Shown here in pieces: positions 8,647 through 12,757 of a stretch of 32,682 nucleotides of DNA. The notes below the pieces were generated by a model, which was given only the letters and a program-made list of their open reading frames with translations, made no database searches and had not been told where the DNA came from. Position numbers and translations under genes: made by a program. Each line of letters opens with the position of its first letter. The stretch's first letter is position 1. Origin of the DNA: Tissierellia bacterium (GTDB lineage: Bacteria > Bacillota > Clostridia > Tissierellales > Tepidimicrobiaceae); the NCBI GenBank assembly GCA_012728595.1, contig JAAYEU010000031.1, forward strand, positions 1 to 32,682. The letters run 5' to 3'.

Positions 8647-10071
8647 TTATTCTTCATTTCCTCCATCTTCTTGTAGTTCATCAAATTCATTATCTAATTC
8701 AGCTTCCAAATTAGTCGATGTATCGACTGCTTCTTTAGCAATCTTATAAATGAAGTTTTTGGGTCTATAAAAGTCTTTGCTAATTAGGTCCCTACTTACA
8801 GTTTTACCATTCTTGATTATGGACTTATAGGTGTTCACCCTATAGCCAGTTCTTCCTGCCTGAACTAAAACCTTACTACCCGGTTCTAAAGTTTCATCTA
8901 CAATTACTTCTTCTTCAGCTGGAATTGTTTCTACTATTTCCGACTCAATTTTTACCGTATAATCCCTGGACTGCTTATCCCCATAAATATAAAAATATAG
9001 TCGATTCCCTACAACCTTAGAGTCGATATATATGGGATAATCGAAGTCATTCCTAAATTTTAAATCTAAGAATCCATAGGCTACTGCAGCATCCTGACCA
9101 AAATTCACATAATTCGATGGTATTGAGTGGGGTGACCTTTGCAAAATAGTTACATCAGCTAATAGTAGGGCATTATATAAAGTTGTGGATGTTTGACATA
9201 CTCCTCCTCCCACATCTGGGGTAAATTCGCCATTTAGGATAACGGTGGCCTCCTTATACCCAAATTGCTTAGCCCTAGGCCCTGTAGTTTCATTAAAGGA
9301 CATGGTTTCTCCAGGCATCAATAACTTGCCCTTAAAAGCCTGAGCAGAAAGCCTTATATTTTCTATCCTATTTTGGCTACTTCCCTGAAAGGAAGTAGAG
9401 TATTCACCAATAACTCCATTTATCCTACTCAATAGACTCTTAGTAACCTTGGGGATAATATTTTCTACTGGTATTTCTATGGTATCCAATTGGTTTATAT
9501 TCTCATAGATGGCCTGGCTTAGTCCTTCCTTATCTACCACTCTACCCACTACCTCATCAGTAATGGATATATTACCATTGTTGAAGTGAAATTCTGCATC
9601 CTTTGCATCCCTATTGATTTCTTGGCTTATAAGCTCTACTATGCGGTCTATTTTTTCCTTACTGATGTTGGACTCTAGTGGAATTACAAACCCATTCCGC
9701 TTCACATGTATAATATCCTTTATTCTCTTAAAGGCGTTGCCTTCTCTGCCAATAGAATAGGCCATATTGATAATCTTTTCATAGTCAAAACTAAGCCCTA
9801 ATTCATCTAACCCATAGACGTATTCCTCATCCAGGTACTTAAGCTTCATCTTCCTGTTTTTAACTTCTTCCCAGTGGTTATTTTTAAGGTATAAAAGTCC
9901 TTCCTCCTTGGTCATAAGAGACAAGTCGTATTTGTCAACCTTTACACCCTGGTATATTAAGTCGGTATTTAAAACCTTATAATATCCATAGAAACCTAAA
10001 CCTATAATAATTACTATAAAAATAGATAAGAGTATGAATACAATTTTCACTTTTTTGTTAGCTCTTTCCAT
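8647..10071 (-). CDS. VanW-family membrane-anchored cell-wall protein with G5-like domain
   Basis: A 474-residue envelope protein. An N-terminal transmembrane anchor (residues 9-30, KIVFILLSIFIVIIIGLGFY) is followed by a peptidoglycan-binding-type region (about 35-200), a VanW domain (about 225-355, with FNETTGPR and GGGVCQTSTTLYNALL) and a G5-like beta domain (about 375-450, with LEPGSKVLVQAGRTGYRVNTYK). The C-terminal 30 residues are acidic. VanW-domain proteins are common in Gram-positives and their biochemical role is unsettled. The start at 10071 follows GGAGGCCAGAT. It lies 63 nt after the FtsA-like gene, which makes a shared envelope role plausible but unproven. Confidence 0.88.
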   Translation of the reverse strand: MERANKKVKIVFILLSIFIVIIIGLGFYGYYKVLNTDLIYQGVKVDKYDLSLMTKEEGLLYLKNNHWEEVKNRKMKLKYLDEEYVYGLDELGLSFDYEKIINMAYSIGREGNAFKRIKDIIHVKRNGFVIPLESNISKEKIDRIVELISQEINRDAKDAEFHFNNGNISITDEVVGRVVDKEGLSQAIYENINQLDTIEIPVENIIPKVTKSLLSRINGVIGEYSTSFQGSSQNRIENIRLSAQAFKGKLLMPGETMSFNETTGPRAKQFGYKEATVILNGEFTPDVGGGVCQTSTTLYNALLLADVTILQRSPHSIPSNYVNFGQDAAVAYGFLDLKFRNDFDYPIYIDSKVVGNRLYFYIYGDKQSRDYTVKIESEIVETIPAEEEVIVDETLEPGSKVLVQAGRTGYRVNTYKSIIKNGKTVSRDLISKDFYRPKNFIYKIAKEAVDTSTNLEAELDNEFDELQEDGGNEE

Positions 10072-10134: not shown

Positions 10135-12090
10135 CTACTTACTCCAATAAATTTCTATTTCATCTCCATCTTTAAGAGGGGCCAAGTATTCAGCATCTCT
10201 ACCGTTTATTTTAAGTACTAAACTACCTCTTGGTTTTGATAGGTCGAAATCTATATAATCGAAAATATCTACGAATACAAACTCATCCTTATTGTATCTA
10301 ATAATCCTTTCCTCTTGATTTATATATAACCTTATTTCCTTATCCTTAACAATTTTTATCTCATCGCCACTTTTAAGTGGGGTACTTAAGCTAACCTTAT
10401 TGCCATTTACATAGACATCGGATATGGAAATGGCTTCATCTAAATCTTTTAAAAAGTCTGCCACATTTTCTATTCTAATAACTTCTATCCTGTCCTTTTC
10501 TTTCACTAGAGGGTTACCACTTACAATCTCTCCGTTTATCTTAACCTCTCTTATTAGGTTGTACTCCTTGCCATTGAGAAATACTATCTCTTCCAAAGGA
10601 ATGCATTGGGATAAATAGGGTTTGGCTTTTTCGCCTTGGCTAGCTTCTACTATTGTTACCACATCGCCATCTTGCAACTGGGTATTTAAGTTCCCTATCC
10701 TTCCATTTACATATATTTTAGCTTCTACACCTTCTTTTCCCATTATTACTTTCTTTTCCCCATTCAGGTAATATATGAAATCTTCTCCCAATTTAGGAAT
10801 TAGCTTTCTGGGGTTATATCCTGTTAAAACCAATATATCTGAAACCTTCACCCTTTCAACATTAAATAATCGAATCTCCTCTCCGTTAAAGGATATTTCA
10901 ATAAAGTTTTTATACCTCTTCATTAAGCTTTCTATGGCTATTCCAATTGGAGTTATAATATCTGGTCCCTTAATGCTTTCATCTAGCCCTTCCAGCTTTT
11001 CAATAAAGCTAGTATCCCTTATCGACACCCTTTCCTTTGGAAGGCCTAGTTTATCCGCTATACATTCCTTTAATCCTGGCATTTGGCTGCTGCCACCAAT
11101 TAAAAAGACTGCACTGGGAGCTTTCCCATTAAATTCTATAATCTTTTCTACTATCTCATTGGCTATATCCTCTATGGTTTCATATATGCTATCCACTATT
11201 TCCCTGGTGGTAAGTCTATGTTTTATACCTACCACATCCACGAATTCATGTTCTTCTCGGGAATTGAGTTTAACTTTTAATTCTTCCCCAGCATTAAAGT
11301 CTAGTAAGTATTTTTTAGATAGGGCTTCTGTAATCTCATCTCCCGCTTTAAAGGTCATGGCATAAGCTATAATCTTTCCATCTTTGGTTATAGCAATATC
11401 CGATGTGCCTGCCCCAATATCTACCAGAGCTAGGTTTAATAGCCTTAACTCCTCCTTAATAGCCACATCTAAAGCTGCAATAGGCTCTAGCGTTATATTT
11501 CCTACCTCAAGGCCAGATTTGGATATAACGGAATATAAACCCTCAACTACTATCTGGGGTAGGAAAGTAGCCAAAAGTTCTACTCCTATATAATTCCCCC
11601 TATGACCTTCCAATTTATCCATTGTGACTCCGTTTAAATAGTAATCCATTACGGTATGGCCAATATTATAATATCTCAGCCTATTATTTGGGTCACTATC
11701 GTTTACTATTTGCTGGGCTTTTTGGACGGCCTCTAATTCCAAAACTTCTACCATATTCCTGCTAATCAGCACATCATTTCCTATTTCCTTCTCAATTTTC
11801 ACCCTACAGGTCTTTAAGGACCTACCTGCAGCTGCAATGGAGACCTTCTTTAAAGGGATATTAAGGCTATCTTCCAATTCCCTCTTTATTTCCTTTACTA
11901 TTTCAGTAACTCCATCAATATCGTGTATCTGGCCATCATACATATTCCTCTTATTATGTTCCTTGATGGAATAATCCAATATTTTAAATTTTTGGTCTTT
12001 TGTAAGAGTGCCTACAATTCCAATTACAGTTCTTGTACCTATATCCAAAGAAAAAACCAGCTCTTCCTTCAATCTATCCAACTGTTCCAT
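10135..12090 (-). CDS. FtsA-like actin-fold ATPase with C-terminal beta-grasp-like repeats
   Basis: A 651-residue protein. Residues 10-395 form an FtsA-type actin-fold ATPase: phosphate-1 motif VFSLDIGTRTVIGIVG at 12-27, phosphate-2 LALVDIGAGTSDIAI at 220-234, adenosine motif AVFLIGGSSQMPGLK at 327-341, and TPIGIAIES at 380-388. After this, about 250 residues hold four similar units of the form (I/V/L)-x-(V/I)NG...L-(K/Q)-x-(G/K)D-x-(I/V)-x-I at about 459-481, 516-540, 559-581 and 626-648. They look like ThiS/SLBB-type beta-grasp modules. The amphipathic membrane helix that ends classical FtsA is not seen. Canonical FtsA is about 420 residues, so this is a distinct paralogue. Start 12090 follows AAGGAG at long spacing. 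Confidence 0.82.
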   Translation of the reverse strand: MEQLDRLKEELVFSLDIGTRTVIGIVGTLTKDQKFKILDYSIKEHNKRNMYDGQIHDIDGVTEIVKEIKRELEDSLNIPLKKVSIAAAGRSLKTCRVKIEKEIGNDVLISRNMVEVLELEAVQKAQQIVNDSDPNNRLRYYNIGHTVMDYYLNGVTMDKLEGHRGNYIGVELLATFLPQIVVEGLYSVISKSGLEVGNITLEPIAALDVAIKEELRLLNLALVDIGAGTSDIAITKDGKIIAYAMTFKAGDEITEALSKKYLLDFNAGEELKVKLNSREEHEFVDVVGIKHRLTTREIVDSIYETIEDIANEIVEKIIEFNGKAPSAVFLIGGSSQMPGLKECIADKLGLPKERVSIRDTSFIEKLEGLDESIKGPDIITPIGIAIESLMKRYKNFIEISFNGEEIRLFNVERVKVSDILVLTGYNPRKLIPKLGEDFIYYLNGEKKVIMGKEGVEAKIYVNGRIGNLNTQLQDGDVVTIVEASQGEKAKPYLSQCIPLEEIVFLNGKEYNLIREVKINGEIVSGNPLVKEKDRIEVIRIENVADFLKDLDEAISISDVYVNGNKVSLSTPLKSGDEIKIVKDKEIRLYINQEERIIRYNKDEFVFVDIFDYIDFDLSKPRGSLVLKINGRDAEYLAPLKDGDEIEIYWSK

Positions 12091-12106
12091 AATAACAGTC
12101 CTCTCC

Positions 12107-12757
12107 TTATTTATTAAGCTCTTCCTTATAATAGAAACAATAATCCGTTAACGGACATTTATGGCATAAAGGCCTTCTTGCCTTGCAAATTCTTCGTCCA
12201 TGGAATATCAATAGATGATGGGCTTTAGACCACATCTCCTTCCTTATATTTTCCATTAAATCCTTTTCCGTGTCCAATACATTTTTGCTATCTGCAAGCC
12301 CAATCCTATTGGATACCCTGAAAACATGGGTGTCAACAGCTATGGCGGGTTTTGAAAAGGCATTGCTTAAAACCACATTGGCGGTCTTTCTACCAACACC
12401 AGGCAGGCTCATCAATTCCTCTAATGTATCGGGTACTTTCCCATCGAATTTTTCTATTAGGAGTTTGCAAGTAGCTAAAATATTTTTACTCTTGGTCCTA
12501 TAAAATCCACAGGATCTAATCCTTTCCCCCAATTCCTCTATGCTTAATTTTAGATAATCTTCGGGAGTTTTCAACTCTTTAAAAAGTTCTTCCGTAGTTT
12601 TATTAACTTGCACATCTGTACATTGGGCTGAAAGAATTGTGGCTATTAAAAGCTCAAAGGGGTTTGAATAATTTAACTCTGCCTTTGCATCTGGATATAA
12701 ATCCATTAATATCTCTATTACCCTTTCAATTTCCTCTTTTGTTAACATCTTCTTCAT
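12107..12757 (-). CDS. nth: Endonuclease III (DNA glycosylase/AP lyase)
   Basis: A 216-residue bifunctional glycosylase that removes oxidised pyrimidines and nicks abasic sites. The helix-hairpin-helix LPGVGRKTANVVL carries the catalytic Lys124; the catalytic Asp142 is in VDTHVFRVSNRIG. The 4Fe-4S cluster ligands are Cys191, 198, 201 and 207 in the C-x6-C-x2-C-x5-C pattern. Full length. The start at 12757 follows TAGGTGATTAA. It begins 8 nt after DUF503 and ends 16 nt before the FtsA-like gene, so all three appear co-transcribed. Confidence 0.97.
   Translation of the reverse strand: MKKMLTKEEIERVIEILMDLYPDAKAELNYSNPFELLIATILSAQCTDVQVNKTTEELFKELKTPEDYLKLSIEELGERIRSCGFYRTKSKNILATCKLLIEKFDGKVPDTLEELMSLPGVGRKTANVVLSNAFSKPAIAVDTHVFRVSNRIGLADSKNVLDTEKDLMENIRKEMWSKAHHLLIFHGRRICKARRPLCHKCPLTDYCFYYKEELNK

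Follow-up and report, generated by a model that had tools for sequence, protein, structure and literature searches.

The window analysed in this work, a contig of 32,682 nucleotides from a Tissierellia bacterium, encodes a protein of 651 amino acids in which an FtsA/PilM-like actin-fold ATPase is followed by a tail of beta-grasp repeats. This protein belongs to what is apparently a distinct, widespread and unstudied Bacillota family of FtsA/PilM-related actin-fold ATPases. The domain anatomy of core and tail is well supported and, together with the distribution of the family, is solid; its function is a matter for hypothesis, and the one put forward below is offered tentatively. The features of the gene are as follows:

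10135..12090, reverse strand: entire gene for the 651-aa protein, an actin-fold ATPase of FtsA/PilM type with beta-grasp repeats at its C-terminus
10927..12090, reverse strand: ATPase domain, residues 1-388, from the alignment with the FtsA model TIGR01174
12031..12051, reverse strand: phosphate-1 motif SLDIGTR (residues 14-20), D16, G18 and T19 invariant in 42 homologues
11398..11421, reverse strand: phosphate-2 motif DIGAGTSD (residues 224-231), D224, G226, G228, T229 and D231 invariant in 42 homologues
11086..11106, reverse strand: adenosine motif FLIGGSS (residues 329-335), G332 and G333 invariant in 42 homologues
10627..10911, reverse strand: beta-grasp unit 1 (residues 394-488), full hairpin-helix-strand, from the hhalign match to unit 4 (E 5e-14) and ThiS/MoaD/TGS structures
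10468..10599, reverse strand: beta-grasp unit 2 (residues 498-541), partial, lacking the helix, from the hhalign match to unit 1 (E 2e-13)
10339..10473, reverse strand: beta-grasp unit 3 (residues 540-584), partial, lacking the first hairpin, from the best Pfam ThiS/TGS stretch and profile comparison
10138..10344, reverse strand: beta-grasp unit 4 (residues 583-651), full, closing the protein, from profile and structure alignment and the invariant W649

That the ORF at 10135-12090 on the reverse strand is real is evidenced by 41 aligned homologues with 33-76% identity; members of the family are about 590-860 aa long. The FtsA model TIGR01174 matched the protein with 100.8 bits in an end-to-end alignment of residues 12-384 with positions 2-368 of 371, the FtsA structure 7q6f was the first phmmer match (residues 9-382, E 2e-15), and Pfam PF14450 scored above its cut-off, which together with the three nucleotide motifs places the protein in the actin superfamily. 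The PilM and EutJ models matched the core more weakly than the FtsA model. E202 and P203 of the ATPase domain were likewise invariant in the 42 aligned homologues. The FtsA-like or actin-like ATPase proposed by the first-pass annotation is thus borne out by the TIGR01174 alignment and the conserved motifs, and the invariance of the latter suggests that the 651-aa protein is probably an active ATPase. The full-length structure model, obtained from three sequences, reached a pLDDT of 53.8 and is too weak for use, including for the arrangement of the core relative to the tail.

The first-pass annotation had also described the about 250 residues that follow the ATPase part as beta-grasp-like, a description upheld by domain models, internal repeats and the predicted fold. 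Pfam ThiS matched the protein with 54.7 bits (cut-off 22.5) and TGS with 38.4 bits (cut-off 22.2), and at E<=0.01 TGS was found in 33 and ThiS in 25 of the 42 homologues. Profile-profile comparison based on 84 homologues showed that units 1-4 match one another with E values of 1e-11 to 5e-14 and probabilities of 97-98%, while segments of the ATPase domain gave at most 34% and column-shuffled profiles at most 2%. The starts of the four-unit motif were confirmed at residues 459, 516, 559 and 626; the tail held 3-4 copies of the motif, a count of 0 being obtained in 2000 tail shuffles, and all four copies were visible in only 2 of the 84 homologues. On these sequence comparisons the four-fold motif is clear only in the lineage of the window, whereas homology among the repeats extends to the whole family. 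A model of the tail (residues 390-651, mean pLDDT 70.9, from a three-sequence alignment) contained beta-grasp repeats as anticipated: linear tetra-ubiquitin and bacterial multi-ubiquitin proteins ranked first in Foldseek (E 4e-7), and with VIA-align Z values of 7-8 at 2-2.5 A were obtained for unit 1 on ThiS, MoaD and TGS domains, and of about 7 for unit 4 on ThiS, MoaD and Urm1. A Z of 7-8 is modest on its own, but it agrees with the sequence evidence for a beta-grasp fold. The count of four units stands as regards their positions and mutual homology and has to be qualified as regards their completeness: since units 1 and 4 are complete and units 2 and 3 only partial, three or four domains are possible, and units 2 and 3 may together form one domain.

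The tail units share fold and sequence signature with ThiS, MoaD, TGS and ubiquitin-like domains; the difference lies in their tandem fusion to an actin-fold ATPase and in the lack of the C-terminal Gly-Gly used for thiocarboxylation or conjugation. The bacterial multi-ubiquitin-domain proteins of PDB entries 9cd2 and 9d5a, which were among the best Foldseek matches of the tail, also contain tandem ubiquitin-like modules, but their chains of about 215 residues are too short to include an actin-like ATPase and, with an identity of about 9-11%, they are related to the tail by fold only. Beta-grasp domains are common protein-recognition modules, and this would suit a non-filamentous ASKHA ATPase that handles clients in the style of EutJ or the diol dehydratase reactivases, its beta-grasp modules recognizing the client; EutJ models indeed match the core with 59-65 bits and Pfam DDR weakly matches 29 of the 42 homologues. 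Yet the best match, covering the core end to end, is to the FtsA model, and no consistent enzyme neighbour accompanies the gene, so that we regard this explanation as unlikely.

The chain terminates in GDEIEIYWSK, which is predicted to form a strand and has a low hydrophobic moment (0.34), and neither a transmembrane segment nor a C-terminal amphipathic helix was found in the 651-aa protein. The absence of the amphipathic helix typical of FtsA, pointed out in the first-pass annotation, was therefore corroborated. W649 is invariant in the 42 homologues, most of which terminate in, or soon after, the corresponding IxW strand. No C-terminal Gly-Gly was detected at the IYWSK terminus or in the homologue ends listed, and without such an end a role as a covalent ubiquitin-like modifier was rejected.

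The family was detected in at least 167 of 299 sampled Bacillota genomes (E<=1e-50), and in at least 44 of the 196 genomes of the class and at least 44 of the 100 genomes of the order to which the window belongs. Named carriers include Anoxybacillus, Acetoanaerobium and Clostridium sp. Cult1; the member from Anoxybacillus, which belongs to Bacilli, is labelled PilM in its public record. When the ATPase parts were placed in a maximum-likelihood tree, the family formed a clade of its own (support 98/96), apart from FtsA (95/93), PilM and MreB, although the deep branches are long and the exact sister group is unsure. A search of the open-access literature in PMC for FtsA-like or PilM-like proteins in Clostridium or Bacillus, or for FtsA with beta-grasp domains, returned nothing on the family (subscription journals may differ), and FtsA is not mentioned in a survey of the beta-grasp fold (PMC1949818). 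The homologues of family f114, about 850-860 aa long, are extended at the N-terminus by about 65 residues.

The ATPase domain of the family resembles FtsA in its end-to-end alignment and conserved nucleotide motifs and differs from it in several respects: the TIGR01174 score lies below the equivalog cut-off of 175.85, the proteins form a separate clade, the gene is not beside ftsZ, and about 250 extra beta-grasp residues take the place of the C-terminal amphipathic helix. In the genome of the window ftsZ is located on contig C4 and the family gene on contig C54. The ftsZ locus (L057:1303-10299) reads murG-murA-ftsQ-DUF881-DUF881-sbp-ftsZ-spoIIGA-sigE-sigG, with gene names assigned by reading of the sequences, and does not contain ftsA. 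A canonical ftsA next to ftsZ, for which the first-pass annotation had suggested looking elsewhere in the genome, was found neither at this locus nor on other contigs of the 93% complete assembly; given this completeness, an ftsA located away from ftsZ could be missing from the assembly. The remaining FtsA-domain matches were MreB with mreCD, an Mbl/MreB beside a flagellar rod gene, and two PilM genes. The organism appears as a spore-former that divides with SepF and in which no canonical FtsA was found. The combination that the first-pass annotation had set against its own reading, a sole FtsA with a membrane-targeting helix at its tail, is not what was found: apart from MreB, Mbl and PilM, no FtsA-like protein other than the 651-aa one was found in the genome, but the latter has no such helix.

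These findings raise the question of whether the family protein is the working FtsA of this organism, binding the FtsZ tail peptide and anchoring the Z-ring after loss of canonical ftsA, and the normal C-terminal peptide retained by its FtsZ (DIPTFLRRR) would fit this idea, as would the lack of any other FtsA-type protein in the genome. Against it, canonical FtsA occurs alongside the family protein in at least 18 of 44 genomes at the level of the class and at least 15 of 44 at the level of the order, many genomes of the order have neither protein, SepF, the usual alternative anchor, is present in the genome of the window, and a membrane-targeting helix is missing. The two proteins are thus not mutually exclusive, the family is not simply a substitute for FtsA, and replacement of canonical FtsA is not supported; a working FtsA in this particular organism is improbable.

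The family shares with PilM (TIGR01175/PF11104) a cytoplasmic FtsA-like actin fold and, as proposed below, docking to proteins rather than to lipid. A role as a PilM-type component of the apparatus for type IV pili or competence, as implied by the annotation of the Anoxybacillus protein, would be consistent with the Pfam PilM_2 match, which passed its cut-off (36.1 vs 27) and extends to all 42 homologues, and with the sigma-H link described below, as competence in some Bacillota is also driven by sigma-H. However, the NCBIfam PilM model TIGR01175 scored 63.3 bits against a cut-off of 133, PilM has no beta-grasp tail, and the genome has two distinct PilM genes, with pilN/pilO-like genes downstream of each. 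No pilN/pilO partner or other pilus gene adjoins the family gene in the window, and none recurs over the 84 loci compared. We consider a PilM-type role very unlikely.

Two genes flank the family gene in the window:

12107..12757, reverse strand: nth, coding for endonuclease III, which lies 16 bp ahead of the family gene and is near it in 30 of 84 loci
8647..10071, reverse strand: VanW/G5/PG-binding membrane protein, downstream neighbour, adjoining in 23 of 84 loci

Gene order in the lineage of the window is DUF503-nth-family gene-vanW-DUF2225, and nth, the most frequent neighbour, is separated from the family gene by a gap of 16 bp (12091-12106) and is probably co-transcribed with it. In other lineages the family gene stands alone, has hem genes, glgA or an M20 peptidase as neighbours, or is placed between aroA-ccpA and ytxJ; over the 84 loci no partner was found that is kept throughout the phylum. 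The first-pass annotation had named the VanW protein as the obvious partner, with the family protein acting as a scaffold that joins an actin-like filament to it. Direct adjacency of vanW downstream in 23 loci, two of them outside the order, speaks for such a pairing, but all the others come from that order or its named relatives, 61 of the 84 loci have no adjacent vanW, and nth and DUF2225 are adjacent as often or nearly so. The cytoplasmic part of VanW is an N-terminal stretch of about 8-15 unconserved residues, in which no PilN-like conserved peptide was found. The proposal was not supported: confined almost to one order and resting on so short a stretch, the pairing is weak, VanW was rejected as a universal partner, and a VanW scaffold is highly improbable.

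A clue to the timing of expression came from the DNA upstream of the family genes. The sigma-H consensus is RNAGGAWWW / RNNGAATWW (as cited in PMC8510167), and scanning of AGGAWW-N11-14-RNNGAAT within 200 bp upstream yielded matches in 24 of 122 family genes vs 32 of 1046 other genes at the same loci (p 9e-11, a value that overstates independence, as the copies are related and the idea was drawn from some of the same sequences). All but one of the family sites lie 41-95 bp before the start. Neither the eight motifs of sigma A, B, D, E, F, G, K and W upstream of family genes nor three scrambled, reversed or re-spaced sigma-H controls showed enrichment. Of the stand-alone copies, with at least 80 bp free upstream, 22 of 71 carried the motif; among other genes with that much room the figure was 16 of 498, and the shuffled upstream DNA of the family gave a mean of 0.3 matches. 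By our own tally the matches are spread over about 20 GTDB families. No sigma-H site was found near the copy in the window, which sits in an operon 16 bp behind nth. Altogether, the pattern suggests that many Bacillota may switch the family gene on via sigma-H at the end of growth.

The family gene accompanies spore-formers. In the phylum sample, 154 of the 167 genomes with the family gene and 96 of the 132 lacking it contained spoIVA (odds ratio 4.4, with a Fisher p of 7e-6 and kinship ignored), the corresponding figures for the order being 42 of 44 and 24 of 56; the genome of the window contains both spoIVA and spo0A. On the other hand, 96 of 250 spoIVA-positive genomes have no family gene and several genomes with the gene (families f29 and f114) have neither spoIVA nor spo0A, so that the gene is neither needed for nor confined to sporulation, and a sporulation-only gene was rejected. 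In two loci of f114 (L168 and L139) a sigma-H-like site was observed some 50 bp ahead of the likely start, despite the lack of spoIVA and spo0A. In Bacillus subtilis the septation that accompanies sporulation draws on a sigma-H promoter of ftsAZ itself, and by analogy it is plausible that the family protein acts near division or septation.

Based on the available evidence, the reading we favour, though we would put it somewhat short of probable, is that of a cytosolic ATP-switched adaptor or filament for envelope work at the transition phase or during sporulation, with beta-grasp modules docking in place of a membrane helix. In the mechanism that we infer, which comprises ATPase activity, polymerisation, tail docking, timing in this organism and a link to division, the actin-like core would, like FtsA and PilM, be switched or polymerised in the cytoplasm by ATP binding. 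The beta-grasp tail would not enter the bilayer but would dock the core non-covalently to protein partners, which might be located at the membrane or the division site. In many lineages sigma-H would turn the gene on at the end of growth, the likely setting being the transition phase or entry into sporulation, when the machinery of division or of the envelope would be remodelled. The bolder formulation, that of an unrecognised cytoskeletal ATPase family with a poly-ubiquitin-like docking tail, deployed by sigma-H at the passage from growth to sporulation as a stage-specific counterpart of FtsA without its membrane helix, is doubtful at present. Only a small number of actin homologues are known from bacteria, and most of them have been studied well. 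A family as widespread in Bacillota as this one, with its unusual tail of tandem ubiquitin-like modules and with no study of it found in the open-access literature searched, represents a gap in our picture of Gram-positive cell organisation, for which the sigma-H signature provides a concrete first hypothesis, namely that the protein is timed to the end of growth.

In a plasmid collection, all matches reaching into the tail came from Bacillota. The 2.63 Mb "plasmid" of Acetoanaerobium noterae (NZ_CP154629.1), which carries the family gene, looks like a mislabelled chromosome. This chromosomal-type gene was also observed in "Bacteriophage sp." records from human faeces (MT835753, MT838720, MT835546, MT835512, MT839800, MT838807, MT836467 and MT837764), which resemble bacterial DNA picked up in virome assemblies.
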